Assembly: GCA_017435865.1 (NCBI GenBank)
Contig: JAFSEF010000080.1
Span: 1-53,553 of the forward strand
Origin: Clostridia bacterium
GTDB lineage: Bacteria > Bacillota > Clostridia > Oscillospirales > Acutalibacteraceae
DNA: 53,553 nucleotides
Direction: 5' to 3'
Below are positions 4,803-14,310 of the stretch, in pieces. The stretch's first letter is position 1, and every line of letters begins with the position of its first letter. Below the pieces are notes generated by a model. It was not told the DNA's origin. It saw only the letters and a list, made by a program, of their open reading frames with translations, and made no database searches. The translations under genes were made by a program, and so were the position numbers.

Positions 4803-6326
4803 GTGAGCGAAGAGAACAAAACGAATGTTGCCGTTGCTGAAGAAAAAGAAGAACTTGCGTTTGGTGCGAAGTTAGACCGTATTTACTGCTCGAACGCAGA
4901 ACGCATCGTGTATACCGTCAAACGAAGCGTGTCAGGTATGAGTCTGGGGAACTTTTCCATGGGATCGGATATTTATCTGTATCAGATTTTCGGACTCAAG
5001 CCTCTGGCACTTGCAAAAGCAAGGGCAGGGCTTACCTTGTTTGATATGCTCAACGATCCGCTGTCGGCGGTCATCGTGGACAGAATGCGAACACGTTGGG
5101 GCAAGTTCAAGCCCTTCCAGTTCGGCACCATCATCCCGAGTACAATGCTTGGAATGTTCAACTGCTTTATGCCGCTGATTGCAATTATGTTCGGCATGAA
5201 TGCGCATGAAAAGCTGATTATGTATATGGCAAGTGCCTATCTGGGGGAGACCATCGGTGCACTGTTCAGCGGTGCAGGCTTCATTGACCTTGTGTTTACA
5301 CCCAACCCACAGGAACGAACGAGTCTGAACACGGCCTCGGAGTTTCTGGCGGATATTTACGGCAAGATACCGAGTCAGATCGCAACTGTTATTTTTGACC
5401 TTGTGGATCACGGGGTCATCAAGATGGATCTGATCAAGGTGTATGTCATTATGAACACGGCCGTGTGGGCAATTACCACCATTCCGAGCTTTATCTGGGC
5501 ATTTATCAGCAAGGAACGTGTGCCGCAATCCATTCAGCCGCCAAAGGCTTCGTCGAGCATTCTTTCGGTGTTTAAAAACAAGCCCTTGCTGATCCATACG
5601 CTTTCGGGCGCAATCGACAATATTCAGATCGGTACGGCCGAATCGCTGTATTTCCGCAATGTGCTCGGACTGAACTCCTTCGGCACGGTCTGGGGTATCC
5701 CGGGCGGCCCGATTTCGTATTACAGCTACATTCTGGCACCGAAGTTCAGAAAACGCTTTTCAACCAAAACGCTGTGGCTGTTGCAAAGAGGATCGATCAT
5801 TATTTCGGAAGGTGCGTTCTTCTTAGTCGGTCTTTCAGGCGGCATGAAGTATAAGCTGTATGCCAGGGTCGGTGTCATGGGTGTGATGTTCATGCTCGGT
5901 AACTGCCTCGAAATGGTGTTCTATGCAACCAAAAAGATCGTCGGCACGGAAATCAGCTACGAAGTGCAGGACTACTGTGAATGGAAAAACGGTTTCCGCG
6001 TGGAAGCGACCACAGGGCTTCTTACCAACTACTGGGGCAAGGTGCAGGGGTATCTGCTGAACCTCATCAACGCATGGATCCTCGAAAAGTGGACGGGATT
6101 TGAATCCGGTGCACTTGCCGTACAAAGCGAAAAAACAAAATTCCGTCTGTTCATCATGGCTTACGGACCGCGTCTGATTCCCGACATTTTGTGTACGATT
6201 CCGATGTTCTTCTATAATATCGACACAAAAACACGCGAAAGAATGTATCTCGAATTGCAGGAGATCCGAATGAAAAAAGCTGCCGAAGTGGAACAACTCG
6301 CAAACGGCGACAATGAACAGAAATAA
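4803..6326 (+). CDS. GPH-family (MelB-like) MFS transporter
   Basis: A 507-residue polytopic membrane protein of the glycoside-pentoside-hexuronide:cation symporter type. The N-terminal half has DMLNDPLSAVIVDRMRTRWGKFKPFQ, cut here into the family motif DPLSA...D and R-x-R-W-G-K-F-K-P, and about twelve hydrophobic segments follow. It probably imports a sugar or glycoside with a cation. The start is the GTG at 4803, preceded by GGGGAGGAAAT. It ends in a short charged tail. It has its own promoter, so co-transcription with the kinase is not required. A second, longer homologue lies at 31267. The substrate cannot be told from sequence. Confidence 0.8.
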   Translation: MSEENKTNVAVAEEKEELAFGAKLDRIYCSNAERIVYTVKRSVSGMSLGNFSMGSDIYLYQIFGLKPLALAKARAGLTLFDMLNDPLSAVIVDRMRTRWGKFKPFQFGTIIPSTMLGMFNCFMPLIAIMFGMNAHEKLIMYMASAYLGETIGALFSGAGFIDLVFTPNPQERTSLNTASEFLADIYGKIPSQIATVIFDLVDHGVIKMDLIKVYVIMNTAVWAITTIPSFIWAFISKERVPQSIQPPKASSSILSVFKNKPLLIHTLSGAIDNIQIGTAESLYFRNVLGLNSFGTVWGIPGGPISYYSYILAPKFRKRFSTKTLWLLQRGSIIISEGAFFLVGLSGGMKYKLYARVGVMGVMFMLGNCLEMVFYATKKIVGTEISYEVQDYCEWKNGFRVEATTGLLTNYWGKVQGYLLNLINAWILEKWTGFESGALAVQSEKTKFRLFIMAYGPRLIPDILCTIPMFFYNIDTKTRERMYLELQEIRMKKAAEVEQLANGDNEQK

Positions 6327-6338
6327 GTGAATAAACAA

Positions 6339-6369
6339 AAAACGGAGCTGCTCAGTACAGCTCCGTTTT
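6339..6369. terminator. Bidirectional terminator
   Basis: AAAACGGAGCTG pairs with CAGCTCCGTTTT around a 7-base loop. It sits between the convergent transporter and kinase genes and has A and T runs on both sides. Confidence 0.85.
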
Positions 6370-6406
6370 CGTTGTATCCGGATAATTTCAGTTTTTTTTG
6401 TTCTGA

Positions 6407-7318
6407 TCAGTGCATCTGCAGAATTTCCTGCACGGTGGGAATGGAGTTTTCTGCTCCCATTCTGCTGACCGCAATGGCACCTGCTTTGTTGCCCATGTCA
6501 CAGGCATTGCAGATGTCACCGTTTTTTATGTATTCCAGTGCCATTACAGCCGTAAAACAATCGCCTGCCGCTGTGGTGTCAACAACATTTGTTTTATAAG
6601 GCGGAAACAGTTTCAGCTCTTTGCCGTCCCATAAAGAGCAACCCTTGGCACCGAGTTTCAGTACAATGTATTTTGCCTTGCTGCGTTTTTGCAGTATTTC
6701 AGATGCTTGCAGAATGCTTTCTTCATCGGCAGGAAGAATCCCCGTGAGTGCCTGCGTTTCACTTTCATTGGGGGACAGAATGGTTGCACCCTGCATTTTT
6801 TCGAGGCACAGGTTTTTTGCAGGACCGCAATCAATCACGGTCGTTATATTGTTTTTGACCGCATGGTTGACACAGGCAATGATAACATCTTCATTGGTTT
6901 CAAACTGCAAAAGTAAAAGATCTGTGTCCGGTCTGATGGCACTGACCGCTTTTACGGGATCTATTTCAGCATTTGCACCCTCATAAACCACGATTCTGTT
7001 TTTGCCGTCGCCGTCGATCAGAATGGCTGCAAGTCCGGTCTGTGAACCGTCTGTTGCGACATCGGAAACGTCAATATTGTTGTTTTTTAAATTCTCAATC
7101 AGTTTCTTGCCGTTGGCATCGTCGGCAACTTTGCCGATCATTTTCACCTTTGCACCGACTTTTGCCAATGCACACGCCTGGTTTGCTCCTTTGCCACCGT
7201 TGGCATATCCGTAAGTGGAACCGAGTACATTTTCACCTGTTCCGGGTACTTTCGGCATATTGAGAATCATATCCATGTTGATGCTGCCGACCACTGTGGC
7301 ATGAATGTTGCTGTACAT
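6407..7318 (-). CDS. rbsK: Ribokinase-like PfkB carbohydrate kinase
   Basis: A 303-residue cytosolic sugar kinase. The N terminus has VVGSINMDMI and the ribokinase glycine patch GYANGGKGANQA, which binds the sugar. Near the C terminus DTTAAGDCFTAV carries the catalytic Asp of the PfkB signature. The expected reaction is ATP-dependent phosphorylation of ribose at O5. Length and motif order match ribokinase better than fructokinase or adenosine kinase. ATG 7318 follows GCGAGGAAAAC. No ribose ABC genes are adjacent. The next gene upstream on the same strand is a phosphatase, and the two may be co-transcribed. Confidence 0.85.
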   Translation of the reverse strand: MYSNIHATVVGSINMDMILNMPKVPGTGENVLGSTYGYANGGKGANQACALAKVGAKVKMIGKVADDANGKKLIENLKNNNIDVSDVATDGSQTGLAAILIDGDGKNRIVVYEGANAEIDPVKAVSAIRPDTDLLLLQFETNEDVIIACVNHAVKNNITTVIDCGPAKNLCLEKMQGATILSPNESETQALTGILPADEESILQASEILQKRSKAKYIVLKLGAKGCSLWDGKELKLFPPYKTNVVDTTAAGDCFTAVMALEYIKNGDICNACDMGNKAGAIAVSRMGAENSIPTVQEILQMH

Positions 7319-7378
7319 ATTGTTTTCCTCGCCCCGTAATATAAATAAGTGTTAAGTGCCGGACTTGACTGATTTTAT

Positions 7379-8140
7379 TTATTGGAGATACAAGTCTCTC
7401 CAGTGCATTTTTCTTTCTTCTGTGATGTTGTACTCTTTGAGAAGAAAATCGTCAAAATCGGCGTAATTTTTAAAGGCAGCGGTATAAGCTGCATTAAATT
7501 GATGCGTATCCACGGTTTCGCAGAATTGTATGACCTCGCGAAGCCGTTTTTCTTTACGCAGAAGCAGCAACAGAAGCTGTGTTTTGCGGTTGTGCCATTT
7601 GACATATTCGTTGCTCAATAAATACTGCTGTACGATCTGCGGAAGGCTTCTGCCCAGGCAATATTCAATCACAGCAGCTGCCATCCCTGTGCGGTCTTTT
7701 CCTTCCGAGCAGTGAAACAGAATGGTTTCGCCTTTGTCAAGGCAAGCGAACAGATGGCTCCATGTCTGTTTTGCAAACGGCATGGATGCATAGACCATGT
7801 ATTTTTGTCTGCGCATTTCTTCAATGCCTTCTCCCTTGAGGGCAAGCACGCGGTCGGTCTGCTCTTTTGAAACAACCACAAGGTCAAATTGCTTGTTGTC
7901 AAAGACAGGCAGGTGGGTGTAGGTGCTGCCAAGCGGCACATAATCGGGTTTGTTGGCAACTTCTTCATCACTGCGAAGGTCAAGCACGGTATTGATGTGC
8001 AGATTGTCAAGCATCCGTTTTCCGTCGTCGGACAGTTCAAACAGGGAAGCCGAACGGATGAGTTTGCCTTGTTTTATTGTTCTTCCGTCATTGCAGGCAA
8101 GACCGCCCATGTCGCGGAAATTATTGGGTTTGTTTTTCAT
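7379..8140 (-). CDS. Tyrosine/phosphoinositide-type protein phosphatase
   Basis: A 253-residue protein with the phosphatase loop HCSEGKDRTG (Cys144 nucleophile, Arg150 phosphate-binding) of the Y_phosphatase3/DSP family. The N-terminal NFRDMGG motif and the KLIRSASLFELSD stretch are also diagnostic of this group. Related enzymes dephosphorylate phosphotyrosine or phosphoinositides. The cellular substrate is unknown. There is no signal peptide, so it is probably cytosolic. It lies upstream of ribokinase on the same strand, 60 bases apart. A strong terminator separates it from oppA. Confidence 0.85.
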   Translation of the reverse strand: MKNKPNNFRDMGGLACNDGRTIKQGKLIRSASLFELSDDGKRMLDNLHINTVLDLRSDEEVANKPDYVPLGSTYTHLPVFDNKQFDLVVVSKEQTDRVLALKGEGIEEMRRQKYMVYASMPFAKQTWSHLFACLDKGETILFHCSEGKDRTGMAAAVIEYCLGRSLPQIVQQYLLSNEYVKWHNRKTQLLLLLLRKEKRLREVIQFCETVDTHQFNAAYTAAFKNYADFDDFLLKEYNITEERKMHWRDLYLQ

Positions 8141-8231: not shown

Positions 8232-8253
8232 CCTCCCCGCCGAAACGGGGAGG
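8232..8253 (-). terminator. Terminator of the opp operon
   Basis: CCTCCCCG/CGGGGAGG with a 6-base loop is followed on the minus strand by a T run. It lies downstream of the oppA-like stop at 8290. Confidence 0.9.
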
Positions 8254-8289: not shown

Positions 8290-10062
8290 TTATGCGTCCC
8301 AGCCTTCGTAACGACCGAACTGGCAGTCATTGTTACCGGAGGAAGTAGCGAACATTTCGAGCATGTTGATGGGATCGTCGAAGTCAGCAAGCCAGCCTTC
8401 GCGAGCGATGTCGAAGTTGCCGTTCTTTCTTTCTTCAAGGAAGGTGTTCCATTCAACCTGCTGAATGGACATGGAGATGCCCAGTTCTGCGAAGTCCTGC
8501 TGCATGGATTCAGCAGCTGCAACGTGACCTGTACCGTCGTTGGTCAGGTATTCAATAACGATGGGAGTTTCAGCGGACAGCTTGCCGTCTTCGCCGAACT
8601 TGAAGCCTGCAGCCTTGAGGTAGGTGCGAGCCTTTTCAAGGGTAGCTTCTTTGTCGTTGTTGATGCCGTATACATCGTAGTAGGAGTTAGCTTCTGCGGT
8701 TTCTTTGAAGATGCCGCCGTTGCCGTCTGCCATACCAAGCGGAATGTAAGAGGAAGCAGCAACCTGACCGGTCTGGCCAACGTTTTCGCAGATGTAGTCA
8801 CGGTCGATGAGGATGTTGAATGCAAGACGCATGCAAGCAGCTTCTTCGGGAGTCTTGCCTGCGAACAGTTCGCTGTTAGCATTGAATGCTACGTAGTAAG
8901 TGCCGAGGTTGTCGATGATTTTGAACTCTTTGTTTTCGGTTGCAAGAAGGTTCTGGATTTCGTCCGTGGGAACGGTATCGATGATATCAACGTCACCTGC
9001 GTTGTAAGCAGCGTAGATAGCGGTATCATCAGCGGAAAGCATGAATTCGATGGTTTCAACAGTTACACTGTCAGCATTGTGATAGTAGGGGTTCTTTTCG
9101 TAAGTCATGGAAACGTCGTGTTCCCAAGCGGTGCAAACGAACGGACCATTGGAGACGAAGCCTGCTTCAGTACACCAGCCGCCGGGGGAAACTTCCCAAT
9201 CTTCGTATGCTTCAACAGCAGCCTGCGGTACGGGGAAGAATGTCGGGAATGCCATGAGACCTTCCATGTATGCACAAGGAGCAGTCAGAGAGAATTCGAG
9301 GGTGGTGTCATCAAGAGCGGTTACAGCCAGTTCATTGGGATAGCCAACGAAGGTGGAGAACATATAACCGTAGTCGGATGCGGTTGCTTCAGCAGCAGCA
9401 CGCTTCCAGGAATATTCGAAGTCAGCAGCAGTCAGAGCACTGCCGTCGGACCACATGAGGTCTTCCTTAAGGTTGACTGTGAAGGTAACGGAACCGTCTT
9501 CAGCGGGTTCGGATACGGTGTAGTCAACAGCAAGATCGGGAACAGTGTTGCCTTCTGCATCGTAGGTGTAAAGACCTGCGAAGGAGTTAACTGCAAGGCA
9601 AGCGCCGTCAACAGAGCTGTTGAGAGCCGGATCGAGGTAGTCGGGTTCACTTGCAAGGTTGATACGAAGAGTATCGGAATCATTTGCAAGAACTACATTC
9701 TGGAAGAACTTGTAGCCGAACAGGTTGGAGTACATGCCGGAAACATAGTCTTTTTCCATGTAAATGTCGTTGTAGTAGTACAGGGGGATGACGCAGCCGT
9801 TGGACATAAGAATGTCTTCAGCCTGGTGCATGAGCTCGGTACGCTTTGCGTAGTCGGTCTCAGCCTTGATCTGAGCGATCAGTTCATCGTAAACGGACCA
9901 GCCGTTGATGGGGTCGATGAATGCATCGTCAAGAAGATCAGCAGCAGCGGGGATTTCTTCTACATCGCCGTCACTGACGTTCGTGGGTTCTTCAGTAGGA
10001 CCGCAGGCTGCAACAGTAAGAGCCATGATCGCTACAAGAAGAAGTGCAAGAAACTTTTTCAT
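8290..10062 (-). CDS. OppA-like peptide-binding lipoprotein with permuted domain order
   Basis: A 590-residue SBP_bac_5 lipoprotein with signal peptide and lipobox TVAAC (Cys20). Residues 58-123 (YDELIAQIKAETDYAKRTE..., AEDILMSNGCVIPLYYYND, YVSGMYSNLFGYKFF) are what family members carry at their extreme C terminus. Here they come before the usual mature N terminus (LRINLASEPDYLDPALNSS, from about 130). The protein then stops early, right after NNDCQFGRYEGWDA, exactly where that C-terminal segment should follow. All parts of the fold are present but in circularly permuted order. It is the last gene of the opp operon, with its own AGGAGG-like site before ATG 10062. It presumably delivers oligopeptides to OppBC. 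Confidence 0.88.
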   Translation of the reverse strand: MKKFLALLLVAIMALTVAACGPTEEPTNVSDGDVEEIPAAADLLDDAFIDPINGWSVYDELIAQIKAETDYAKRTELMHQAEDILMSNGCVIPLYYYNDIYMEKDYVSGMYSNLFGYKFFQNVVLANDSDTLRINLASEPDYLDPALNSSVDGACLAVNSFAGLYTYDAEGNTVPDLAVDYTVSEPAEDGSVTFTVNLKEDLMWSDGSALTAADFEYSWKRAAAEATASDYGYMFSTFVGYPNELAVTALDDTTLEFSLTAPCAYMEGLMAFPTFFPVPQAAVEAYEDWEVSPGGWCTEAGFVSNGPFVCTAWEHDVSMTYEKNPYYHNADSVTVETIEFMLSADDTAIYAAYNAGDVDIIDTVPTDEIQNLLATENKEFKIIDNLGTYYVAFNANSELFAGKTPEEAACMRLAFNILIDRDYICENVGQTGQVAASSYIPLGMADGNGGIFKETAEANSYYDVYGINNDKEATLEKARTYLKAAGFKFGEDGKLSAETPIVIEYLTNDGTGHVAAAESMQQDFAELGISMSIQQVEWNTFLEERKNGNFDIAREGWLADFDDPINMLEMFATSSGNNDCQFGRYEGWDA

Positions 10063-10106
10063 GTGTTTTTCCTCCGATAAATATTTTTTTTATACTCGCC
10101 GTTTCT

Positions 10107-10191: not shown

Positions 10192-11151
10192 TTATTTGTT
10201 GAAGCAGGCGGACATATGACCGTTGCCGCGGTCGGTAAGGGAAGGACATTCGGCAGCACACTGTTCGGTTGCATACTGACAGCGTGTGCGGAACGGACAT
10301 CCTGTGGGCATTCTCAGCGGACTGGGAACGTCGCCTTCAAGAATGATTCTCTGTCTGCTTCTGGCAATGTCGGGATCGGGAATGGGTACTGCCGAGAGCA
10401 AACTCTGTGTATAAGGATGCAGGGGATTGTTGTTCAGGTCATCCGCATCTGCCATTTCCACGATTTTGCCGAGATACATAACGGCAATGCGTTTTGAAAT
10501 GTGATGTACGACAAGCAGGTCATGTGCAATGAAAAGGTAGGCGACACCGAGTTTTGCCTGCAGGTCTTCAAACATATTGATAACCTGTGCCTGAATGGAA
10601 ACGTCAAGAGCCGAAACAGGTTCATCACAGACGATGAACTGCGGATCAACCGCAAGTGCTCTTGCGATACCGATACGCTGACGCTGACCGCCCGAGAACT
10701 CATGTGCATAACGTGTTGCGTGTTCGGAGTTCAGACCGACATAATTCATCAGTTCAAGAATCTTTTCACGGCGTTCCTTCTTGTTGGAGTACAGCTTGTG
10801 CACATCCAACGGTTCGCCGATGATGTCTTCAACCGTCATGCGGGGGTCAAGGGATGAGTAGGGATCCTGAAAAACCATCTGCATCTTTTTACGCATGGTG
10901 CCGATGTTTTTCTTTGTAACCAATTCACCGTCAAAGTAAATTTCACCTGCGGTGGGTTCATACAAGTGCAGCAGCGTTCTGCCGACCGTGGTTTTGCCGC
11001 AGCCGGATTCACCGACAAGACCGAGTGTTTCGCCTTTGTTGATGGTAAAGGAAACACCGTCAACAGCTTTCAGTGGGGTTGTTTTCATGAATCCCGTGCG
11101 GATAGGGAAATGCTGTTTTAAATCTCTGACATCTACAAGGACATCACTCAT
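10192..11151 (-). CDS. oppF: Oligopeptide ABC transporter ATP-binding protein OppF
   Basis: A 319-residue ABC ATPase with Walker [10 protein letters not shown], signature [14 protein letters not shown], Walker [13 protein letters not shown] and H-loop AHDL. The C-terminal oligo_HPY extension contains the [10 protein letters not shown] region and a Cys cluster ([19 protein letters not shown]) that in this family can bind an Fe-S centre. It powers uptake together with OppD. It overlaps the oppD stop by 8 bases (start 11151, oppD ends at 11144), which implies coupling. The order on the minus strand is oppB-oppC-oppD-oppF-oppA. Confidence 0.92.
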
Positions 11152-12148
11152 TGTTGTTTCCTCCCTCCGCTTCCAGCATTGCTTTTACATTCATCCAGCA
11201 GGATGCTTTGTGGTTTTCATTGATTGTCAGTTCTTCGGGTTGCTCGGTCAGACAGATTTTCATGGCCGCATCGCAGCGTGCACAGAAGGAACAACCTTTG
11301 GGAAGATTGAGCATGTTGATCGGTGTGCCGAGAATGGGGACCAATCTTTCTTTCATGCGGGTGACATTGGGAATGGAACGAAGCAGTCCCTTTGTGTATT
11401 CATGGCAGGGATTGTAGAAGATTTCGTGTGCGGTACCGCGTTCGCAGATTTTGCCGCCGTACATAACAACAATATTGTCACACATACTTGCGATAACACC
11501 CAGGTCATGCGTAACGAGAATAACAGCCATGCCGAGTTCTTTCTGCAGTTTCTGAATCAGCTCCAGAATCTGTGCCTGAATGGTAACGTCAAGGGCTGTT
11601 GTCGGTTCGTCTGCAATCAGAATGTCGGGTTCACAGGCAAGAGCCATGGCGATCATGACACGCTGACGCATACCGCCCGAAAGTTCGTACGGATACTGTT
11701 TCAGACGCTTGTAGGGTTCGTTGATGCCGACCAGTTCCAGAAGCTCTGCAGCACGATCTTTGGCAGCTTTGCCTTTTTTGTCGGTGTGCAGGGTGATGGC
11801 TTCAGTCAGCTGATTTCCGATTGTGAAAACGGGATTCAGGCTGGTCATCGGATCCTGGAAAATGATGGAGCAGCACTTGCCGCGGAAACCGCGCATCTGC
11901 TTTTCGGACCATTTTGTGATGTCTTCACCTTTGTAGTAAATATTACCGTCCACGACTTTACCGGTTGCGGCAAGAATCTGCATAATGGAATATGCAGTGA
12001 CACTCTTACCCGAACCGGATTCACCGACGATACCGAGGATTTCGCCGTGGTCAAGTTCAAAAGATACACCGTTTACGGCACACACTTCACCGGAGTCCGT
12101 AAAGAAAGAAGTATGAAGATTCTGTACACTGATAAGAGGTTTATTCAT
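11144..12148 (-). CDS. oppD: Oligopeptide ABC transporter ATP-binding protein OppD
   Basis: A 334-residue ABC ATPase with Walker A GESGSGKS, signature [15 protein letters not shown], Walker [14 protein letters not shown]-loop THDLG, and the C-terminal oligo_HPY domain with a Cys motif ([15 protein letters not shown]). It forms the nucleotide-binding pair with OppF. It starts six bases after the oppC stop and overlaps oppF, within a tightly packed operon. Confidence 0.92.
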
Positions 12149-12154
12149 CTTTCA

Positions 12155-13228
12155 TCACCTCTTCAATTTGGGATCGAATGCATCACGCAGGCCGTCACCA
12201 AGCAGGTTCAGGCTCAGAACGATCAGACAAATCATAATAGCGGGGAATACGAGCTTGTAAGGATATGTCATGATACCGCCTCTGGCTGCATTTGCAAGCG
12301 AACCGAGGGAAGGCATGGGAGCCTTGACACCAAGACCGATAAAGGACAGATAGCTCTCCGTAAAGATTGCAGACGGAATCTGCAGGGCAACGGAGATGAT
12401 GATAACCGACAGACAGTTGGGAATGATGTGCTTTTTGATGATTCTGCCGGGTTTTGCACCGATGGAACGGGCTGCAAGGATGTATTCGTTTTCTTTGATG
12501 GAAAGAATCTGACCGCGGATCAGACGTGCCATGCTGACCCAATACAGAAGACCGAAAACGATGAAAATGGAAATCATGTTTGTGCCGAGTTCTGCGAGGA
12601 TGGTTCCGCTCGGAAATACAAGCACTTCGTTGAGAACCACGCTCAACAGGATGATGATGAGCATATCCGGCAGTGCATATATGATGTCGACAATACGCAT
12701 CATGATAAGGTCCACTTTACCGCCGAGATAACCCGATATACTGCCGTAAATCAAGCCGATGATCAGAACGATGATGCTGGCAAACAAGCCGACAACCAAC
12801 GAAACTCTTGTGCCGTAAATAACGCGGATGAAATAGTCGCGGCATTGTTCATCGGTACCCAGGATATGCGGAAAACGTTCGCCGCCGTTTTCAATATATT
12901 CCTGTTCAGCCTGACTGTATTCAAACGGAGCAAGGTTTTTTGCACCCTTGTCACGCTTGCCGTCAATGGAAAGCATTTCTTCGTAGCCGTAGGGAACAAT
13001 CATGGGAGCGACGATGATTGTGATGATGATTACCGAAAGGAGAATGATACTCAGCACTGCAAGCGGATTCTTGAACAAACGACGCATACCGTCTTTGAAG
13101 AAGGTTGTGCTTTCGCTCATGACATCCTGCTGTGCTTTTTCTTCTGCCGTTGCAAGAGTGAACTTCGACAGATCGATCTGTGCACTGAGAATGCTCTTTT
13201 TAGGAAGGTTATTTTCTTTGTTGCTCAT
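12155..13228 (-). CDS. oppC: Oligopeptide ABC transporter permease OppC
   Basis: A 357-residue permease. The N-terminal cytosolic stretch is about 60 residues, followed by six membrane segments with the BPD_transp_1 EAA loop (YILAARSIGAKPGRIIKKHIIPN) that docks the ATPase. The large extracytoplasmic loop after the first helix (PHILGTDEQCRDYF) is typical of OppC/DppC. It is the partner of OppB in the membrane pore. It lies 18 bases from oppB and 6 bases from oppD. Confidence 0.92.
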   Translation of the reverse strand: MSNKENNLPKKSILSAQIDLSKFTLATAEEKAQQDVMSESTTFFKDGMRRLFKNPLAVLSIILLSVIIITIIVAPMIVPYGYEEMLSIDGKRDKGAKNLAPFEYSQAEQEYIENGGERFPHILGTDEQCRDYFIRVIYGTRVSLVVGLFASIIVLIIGLIYGSISGYLGGKVDLIMMRIVDIIYALPDMLIIILLSVVLNEVLVFPSGTILAELGTNMISIFIVFGLLYWVSMARLIRGQILSIKENEYILAARSIGAKPGRIIKKHIIPNCLSVIIISVALQIPSAIFTESYLSFIGLGVKAPMPSLGSLANAARGGIMTYPYKLVFPAIMICLIVLSLNLLGDGLRDAFDPKLKR

Positions 13229-13246: not shown

Positions 13247-14158
13247 TTAGTCGAATTTGATTCTGGGATCCACTGCTTTGTACAGCAGGTCACAGATCAG
13301 GTTGGCAATAACCATCAGTGTTGCAAGGAAAACGGTTGTTGCCATGATCATGGTATAGTCACGGTCGTTGATTGCCGTAATGAATTTGCTGCCGATGCCG
13401 CCGACGGTGAAAATGGTTTCAACAACCATGGAACCCGTGATGATATATGCAATCTGCGGGCCGGCATAGGTAATAACGGGAATCAGAGAATTACGCAGTG
13501 CGTGTTTGAAGATGACTTTCAGACGGGAAACACCCTTTGCACGGGCGGTACGGATGTAGTCCTGTCCCAATGCATCAAGCATACTTGTTTTTGCAAGACG
13601 GGTGGTGTATGCCATCGGATATGCAGCCAGTGCGATAACGGGCAGAATGTAATTCGGATTGTTCGCATTCCATACAGGAATCCACTGGAGTTTAATACAG
13701 AATACCAACAGCAGCAAGGTTGCAAGAACAAAGCTCGGAACTGCAGTGAACAATGTAGAGAAGAAAACGATGATTCTGTCAGGCAGTTTGTTACGCATAA
13801 GTGCTGCAATGCTGCCGAATACCGTTCCCAATGAAAGGGCAATTGCCATTGCCATCAGACCGAGTTTTGCGGAAATCGGGAAGGATTCACCGATGATTTT
13901 TGTGATTTCGCGGCCGTTTTTCAGTGAGACACCGAAGTCTCCCTGCAGAATTCCTTTCATCCAGTTGATGAACTGAATGTATACAGGCTCATTCAGGCCG
14001 TAACGTGCATTCAATGCTTCCACAGTGGCAGGATCCAGTGCCTTTTCAGAGTTGAACGGACCACCGGGGACTGCATGCATGGTGAAGAATGTGATCGCGC
14101 AGATAATAAGAATTGTAAAAATTGCAAGTAATATGCGCTTCACAAAGTATCGGGACAT
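13247..14158 (-). CDS. oppB: Oligopeptide ABC transporter permease OppB
   Basis: A 303-residue permease with an N-terminal helix (MSRYFVKRILLAIFTILII), the characteristic AVPGGPF loop, a second loop with GDFGVSLKNGR, and an EAA motif (DYIRTARAKGVSRLKVIFKHALRN). It has six membrane segments, as is normal for OppB. It is the first gene of the five-gene operon, with a promoter 120 bases upstream and a GAGAGGAG-type ribosome site. Confidence 0.92.
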   Translation of the reverse strand: MSRYFVKRILLAIFTILIICAITFFTMHAVPGGPFNSEKALDPATVEALNARYGLNEPVYIQFINWMKGILQGDFGVSLKNGREITKIIGESFPISAKLGLMAMAIALSLGTVFGSIAALMRNKLPDRIIVFFSTLFTAVPSFVLATLLLLVFCIKLQWIPVWNANNPNYILPVIALAAYPMAYTTRLAKTSMLDALGQDYIRTARAKGVSRLKVIFKHALRNSLIPVITYAGPQIAYIITGSMVVETIFTVGGIGSKFITAINDRDYTMIMATTVFLATLMVIANLICDLLYKAVDPRIKFD

Positions 14159-14281: not shown

Positions 14282-14310
14282 ATTATACATTTTTTTACGC
14301 AATTTGTCAA
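14282..14310 (-). promoter_or_regulatory. Promoter of the opp operon
   Basis: On the minus strand TTGACA (14305-14310) and TATAAT (14282-14287) are separated by 17 bases. The leader to ATG 14158 is about 115 bases. I saw no known riboswitch fold in it. Confidence 0.8.

Follow-up and report, generated by a model that had tools for sequence, protein, structure and literature searches.

The stretch of DNA analysed here (the window, 53,553 nucleotides from a Clostridia bacterium) carries on its minus strand, from position 10062 to position 8290, an open reading frame of 590 aa, whose strand the original prediction had left unstated. In a Pfam scan of its product (E 1e-3), SBP_bac_5 was the sole family found, and the relevant model, PF00496, scored 250.8 bits at residues 173-578, above its curated cut-off of 32.4. 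The gene is the last one of an intact oppB-C-D-F operon with all genes on one strand. The Opp names of the four upstream genes (oppF, oppD, oppC, and oppB) are provisional assignments. Past the operon, at 4803-8140, the window encodes an MFS_2 sugar transporter, a pfkB-type kinase and a Y_phosphatase3 protein.

Table 1. Features of the binding-protein gene and its operon, with positions in the window.
Feature	Positions	Strand	Basis or remark
Consensus promoter TTGACA-17-TATAAT	14282..14310	-	upstream of oppB; 12/12 match; candidate by consensus only
oppB permease	13247..14158	-	ORF list and matching gene order in relatives
oppC permease	12155..13228	-	ORF list and matching gene order in relatives
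oppD ATPase	11144..12148	-	ORF list and matching gene order in relatives
oppF ATPase	10192..11151	-	ORF list and matching gene order in relatives
GGAGG ribosome-binding site	10071..10075	-	8 nt ahead of ATG; read from sequence
Signal peptide and lipobox, residues 1-20 (...LTVAAC)	10003..10062	-	translation
Low-complexity linker behind lipid anchor, residues 21-49	9916..10002	-	poorly conserved
Segment S, residues 50-123 (C-terminal in relatives, first here)	9694..9915	-	DppE/OppA alignments
Junction, residues 124-129, old C terminus to old mature N terminus	9676..9693	-	HMM spacing
Body N1-N2-N3, residues 130-584, SBP_bac_5 domain	8311..9675	-	Pfam and DppE alignment
W557-x-x-D560, peptide N-terminus clamp position	8383..8394	-	conservation and OppA alignment
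C-terminal tail YEGWDA and stop, at cut site	8290..8310	-	translation
Predicted intrinsic terminator	8232..8253	-	3' of binding-protein gene; 9-pair stem, 4-base loop, T run; terminator-like sites in region number 6, not above shuffles (mean 6.8)

The product of this gene is a full-length peptide-binding lipoprotein of the OppA/DppE type, the mature domain of which is circularly permuted; we refer to its order as cp1. It resembles OppA and DppE (SBP_bac_5, cluster C) in its homologous mature length, operon partners, W-x-x-D clamp, and lipoprotein leader but differs from them in the order of the chain, its new termini being located in the loop that precedes the last segment. The canonical order of the mature domain, in which segment S comes last, is not found, and S stands ahead of N1. 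In phmmer comparisons with PDB sequences, residues 130-578 of the window protein correspond to DppE 22-444 and residues 54-117 to DppE 447-512, while in B. subtilis OppA the counterparts of residues 129-580 and 57-123 are 19-450 and 456-522, respectively. In Salmonella OppA (1b05), the match to the body runs to 441 and that to the segment, weak when taken alone, starts from 445. The E-values of S itself are 1.2e-9 for DppE, 8.2e-5 for B. subtilis OppA, and just 0.087 for Salmonella OppA. With the normal-order relative from locus L179 as a reference, the window protein reads as residues 515-590 followed by 55-514, the cut being exact at 514/515, and its last six residues, YEGWDA, form an unaligned tail.

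The protein thus consists of two complementary pieces that are swapped and each present once, as in a natural circular permutant, and the same permuted order recurs in other genomes. This agrees with the original prediction, which had placed the C-terminal segment ahead of the mature N terminus, the chain end at the cut site, and every part in the protein once. The possibility that residues 58-123 are an unrelated duplicate is rejected, as S is single in the protein and tblastn over the whole window gave no second copy further downstream.

Both pieces are under purifying selection. In five pairs of proteins, dN/dS was 0.06-0.14 for S and 0.10-0.14 for the body, although these ratios are rough because dS (0.8-1.8) is near saturation. 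Residues 1-49 evolve faster (dN 0.34-0.48 vs. 0.09-0.20 for the body in the five pairs). Together with the conservation of the order across loci, purifying selection led us to reject the notion of a pseudogene. Among 94 cp1 proteins, a lipobox-type motif (loose pattern) is present in 76, and the spacing from S to N1 is 2-8 residues between HMM matches. Their C termini lie directly after an FGR-type motif in 69 of the 94, while a [YF][ED]GW tail is found in 11.

Many Clostridia and Spirochaetota have kept the cp1 order. Of 26 genomes from the genus, 8, including that of the window, contain full-length collinear matches to the permuted protein, and three of those eight carry a second permuted copy. 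A scan of genome contigs with 11 permuted proteins, which as queries favour permuted matches, yielded 217 stretches in 187 relatives; all 80 kept loci (80 of the 187 relatives), at least six of them contigs of genus genomes already counted, have the permuted order. By title, 66 of these loci belong to Bacillota and 14 to Spirochaetota, the named strain Treponema bryantii XBD1002 among them; herbivore gut samples are named in many of the 80 titles (uncounted). Four spirochaete loci included in the tree described below occupy two separate places among Bacillota, which suggests transfer of the Opp operon between the two phyla. A phylum-wide draw of 398 genomes gave matches in 19 at a threshold of E 1e-100, and 12 of the 13 newly fetched loci are in normal order, the remaining one having a different permuted order (cp3, see below). 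Since the draw was mostly normal, the permutation appears to be concentrated in the group of bacteria to which the window belongs. A match on an Ilyobacter plasmid, seemingly collinear over residues 64-582, was discarded, as it runs into the neighbouring ATPase gene; the Ilyobacter binding-protein gene reaches about 250 bases beyond the match, which leaves room for a normal-order end.

The assembly of the window's genome comprises 133 contigs, and the titles of most relatives mark them as metagenome bins, so that reads joined in the wrong order during assembly or binning had to be considered as a source of the permutation. However, the order agrees among the eight genus genomes and the 80 kept loci mentioned above, including T. 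bryantii XBD1002. The frames are open and have leaders at 61-83% identity, and dN/dS is about 0.1, which misassembly cannot produce. The probability of such an artefact is negligible, and for the family we reject it.

Results of our analysis extend beyond the original prediction in that the same gene has two more circular permutations, cut at other loops. Each protein was split into S, N1, N2, and N3, and every locus fetched by then was scanned, which gave 160 ORFs with distinct cores. Of these, 95 have the cp1 order (S-N1-N2-N3), 43 the normal one (N1-N2-N3-S), 12 the order N3-S-N1-N2 (cp2), and 2 the order N2b-N3-S-N1-N2a (cp3); 3 more are normal with a split HMM match and 5 are partial, and at least one of the normal-order rows (L043) repeats another row in clipped form. 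Two cp3 genes identified later, at L216 and, in another class of the phylum, at L273, bring the total of this order to four. In pairwise BLAST against normal-order relatives as references, the cp1 protein of L184 corresponds to reference residues 515-596 and then 58-514, the cp2 protein of L231 to 437-624 and then 38-429, and the cp3 proteins of L216 and L225 to 335-623 and then 41-334, and to 330-617 and then 56-330, respectively. At the cp2 cut, about 5-10 loop residues are missing; in cp1 and cp3, the chain is cut cleanly. A leader resembling the normal one is kept in front in 8 of 11 compared proteins, and a lipobox-type motif (loose pattern) was detected in 12/12 cp2, 3/3 cp3, and 45/48 normal proteins.

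The genes for OppB, OppC, OppD, and OppF are all located upstream of 78/94 cp1, 11/12 cp2, 3/3 cp3, and 33/48 normal genes, a count that does not comprise the cp3 gene of L273; the remaining genes have fewer opp neighbours (none to three at the 16 other cp1 loci), partly because the fetched stretches are short. As all topologies occur behind oppBCDF, the topology has changed within one operon position. The original prediction was an understatement: the permutation is a conserved family trait, with two more permuted orders in the same slot in related bacteria. The NCBIfam OppA model matches a normal-order relative in one stretch, the window protein and a cp2 protein in two stretches each, and a cp3 protein in three. 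Profile searches that assume chain order will thus report a permuted protein as broken pieces.

The number of topology changes was estimated from an OppBCDF tree of 80 operons and 1282 columns, in which 46 other operons were added to 34 of the 78 complete cp1 operons, picked so as to be well spread. It requires a minimum of 7 changes, or 6 when branches with bootstrap below 95 are collapsed, and a tree of the binding protein in common order (94 rows) also gives 7. With short constrained tree searches, the AU test rejects cp1 as a single clade (p 0.017 for Opp and 0.007 for the combined data), whereas it is not rejected by the SH test (0.101 and 0.052). Three topologies and, by the AU test, at least one extra change within the cp1 clade add up to four or more changes. 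At least four topology changes is therefore the firmer claim that the data support, and seven is a point estimate.

Fewer events would be needed if all permuted orders went back to a single ancient ancestor, fused or permuted, and reversions and reshuffling came later. The AU test leaves a single origin open both for cp2 (p 0.61 and 0.51) and for cp3 (p 0.17 and 0.054), and tests with the binding protein only (0.226 and 0.071) give no rejection either. Additionally, the normal-order genes of L179 and L219, the latter with an internal stop, nest inside the cp1 clade, and several proteins of the cp2 and cp3 orders share a VDG/VEGK-like stretch at their junctions. On the other hand, cp2 and cp3 sit within a clade of normal-order proteins with a long N3-S loop, away from cp1, and we regard descent from a single ancestor as a rather unlikely alternative to separate changes.

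The permuted orders probably originated by tandem duplication of the binding-protein gene in its operon slot. Copy 1 would then have lost its 5' part behind the leader, and, so trimmed, would have been fused in frame to a leaderless copy 2, with a new stop arising at the cut. Fission followed by fusion, or movement of a fragment, could give the same product. Among the loci examined, neither a double-length or part-trimmed intermediate of the duplication nor a gene split at the cut site, as fission would imply, was present, and the clean cp1 and cp3 cuts are what fission and fusion could leave. The leader kept in most of the compared proteins, the unchanged slot, and tandem copies of binding-protein genes in a related operon fit duplication: at L217:4900-11314 (minus strand), three normal-order genes, 72-86% identical, follow oppF in tandem. 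We therefore treat fission and fusion as possible but doubtful. No fused double OppA-type copy was found among the fetched ORFs of more than 1000 aa that hold a binding-protein domain (L063 and L214 were scanned, L215 was judged by the layout of this domain). The cp1 gene at L218:5711-7393 and the normal-order gene at L219:4891-6822 (both on the minus strand) each have one in-frame stop, located inside N1 and off the cut.

Directly behind the cp3 gene of L225, a 215-aa 3' fragment (N3-S) of another binding protein is encoded (L225:8457-9101, plus strand). Being just 33% identical to the cp3 gene, it is not the duplicate of that gene, and we rejected it as a leftover copy that would prove duplication. 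The GW that the N-terminal linker has in common with the C-terminal tail was likewise rejected as a duplication scar. It is ambiguous, since the native loop of L251 has YEGY at the site of YEGWDA.

W557 and D560 of the window protein are invariant in both of our alignments (11 and 41 rows), and in the alignment the W557-x-x-D560 motif falls on the OppA motifs GWLGDF and GWCADY. In AliB and AliD, the Trp and Asp of the clamp motif are described as holding the peptide N terminus (PMC11192437). Both chain ends are assigned to domain I in the accounts of BbOppA4 and AliD (PMC5736914, PMC11192437). With the first and last segments in one domain, a short junction can join the old termini cheaply. 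Thus, the closure of the fold with strands supplied from the N terminus, as originally proposed, is plausible, and the permuted chain would adopt the usual two-lobed receptor structure. The N-terminal S could instead complete a neighbouring molecule, giving a swapped oligomer, and a domain-swapped dimer of the related AliC is reported among crystal structures (PMC11192437). The junction of 2-8 residues and the location of the old ends in one domain nevertheless favour closure in cis, which makes such an oligomer improbable. Most likely, the protein serves as a peptide receptor of the ordinary kind whose lipid tether has been shifted to a different loop; it would bind peptides via the retained W-x-x-D clamp and then feed OppBCDF.

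On the 1b05 alignment, the three cuts map near OppA residues 441-445, 353-354, and 279-286. All three are inside domain III of Salmonella OppA if this domain spans residues 271-486, as we assume. In 48 normal proteins, the N3-S gap, which is the site of the cp1 cut, varies widely (27-29 residues in 25 proteins and 2-4 in 13). The variability of this gap and the mapping of the cuts to domain III led us to propose that permutation transfers the lipid tether from one lobe to the other; by alignment, the new termini are placed in domain III. Taken together, a conserved cp1 receptor with kin cut elsewhere in the same operon slot, a presumed usual fold and a putative origin by tandem duplication form a joint explanation that we consider highly probable from the sequences compared.

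Natural circular permutation is rare, and most cases are fixed differences that separate distant families. In the present case, normal, cp1, cp2, and cp3 proteins are encoded in the same operon position of related bacteria, and so both the stepwise origin and the function of permutation become testable among near relatives. The question arises why a permease-docking receptor tolerates a shifted lipid tether or gains from it. Among the matches listed in the open-access literature on permuted substrate-, solute-, and peptide-binding proteins, a permuted OppA-type protein is absent. The matches listed from the general literature on circular permutation concern mainly sensors and include a study of ribose-binding protein. 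In the text of permutation-detection papers, none of the six binding-protein terms looked up occurs.

The nearest precedent is TpMglB-2 (Tp0684) of Treponema pallidum, described as a naturally permuted glucose-binding lipoprotein of Type Ic/Cluster Bc (PMC4990184). It too is a natural permutant of a tethered ABC-importer binding protein and, according to that description, such proteins occur in treponemes and Gram-positive bacteria. However, it belongs to another family with the cluster B sugar fold and a different cut. The window protein, with its SBP_bac_5 domain, falls by homology into cluster C and not into Type Ic/Cluster Bc, so that only the principle is common to both. One topology is described for TpMglB-2, whereas three cuts occur in one slot in our case. 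A tethering idea was also raised by the authors of that study for their permutant (PMC4990184). In DNA methyltransferases, permuted orders of one fold likewise occur in nature and are explained by duplication, as outlined in the source (PMC3320104). These are enzymes and not receptors, and part-duplicated intermediates are documented for them there, in contrast to the loci studied by us.

A second permuted lineage looks to be represented by AliB-like proteins. The ORF at L063:7320-10976 (minus strand, genome G009) encodes a protein of 1219 aa, P0003, with a TIR_2 domain, Gly/Gln/Pro-rich repeats, a transmembrane helix (assigned by eye), and an AliB-like domain, a layout that resembles an odd receptor-like design. 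In its binding domain the last segment is ahead of the body, with a weak match of this segment (i-Evalue 1.8e-4 for AliC and 0.15 for AliB). At E 1e-70, P0003 has matches in 10 of 300 family genomes, eight over the binding domain in the order of P0003 and two with the TIR part only. In these eight AliB-like proteins, those of L252-L259, the last segment is seemingly placed before the body. One of them, that of L256, shows the same swap relative to AliC, the second stretch of the match having no significance of its own (i-Evalue 1.2).

We lean, by a small degree, towards the view that the Opp binding protein is topologically labile in gut Clostridia, with at least three cuts in one slot, probably reversion, an independent AliB-like permutation, and an evolvable lobe-to-lobe tether. 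The last element would follow from the position of the cuts in variable loops of one lobe, since cutting there would move the membrane tether.

Other unusual architectures were encountered among the fetched loci. The ORF at L214:2211-5585 (plus strand, 1125 aa) combines a dockerin I, a Bmp-type binding domain, and SBP_bac_5 in a single chain, and the ORF at L215:1277-4720 (minus strand, 1148 aa) is similar to it by size and by the layout of its binding-protein domain only. The permuted binding proteins of L035, L051, and L052 have N-terminal dockerin-like repeats, recognized by eye; that of L051 scores below the cut-off of the Pfam dockerin model. At L051 and L052, no opp genes are present within the fetched stretch. 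Similar dockerin-like repeats occur in the normal-order copies of L038, L039, L060, and L062.
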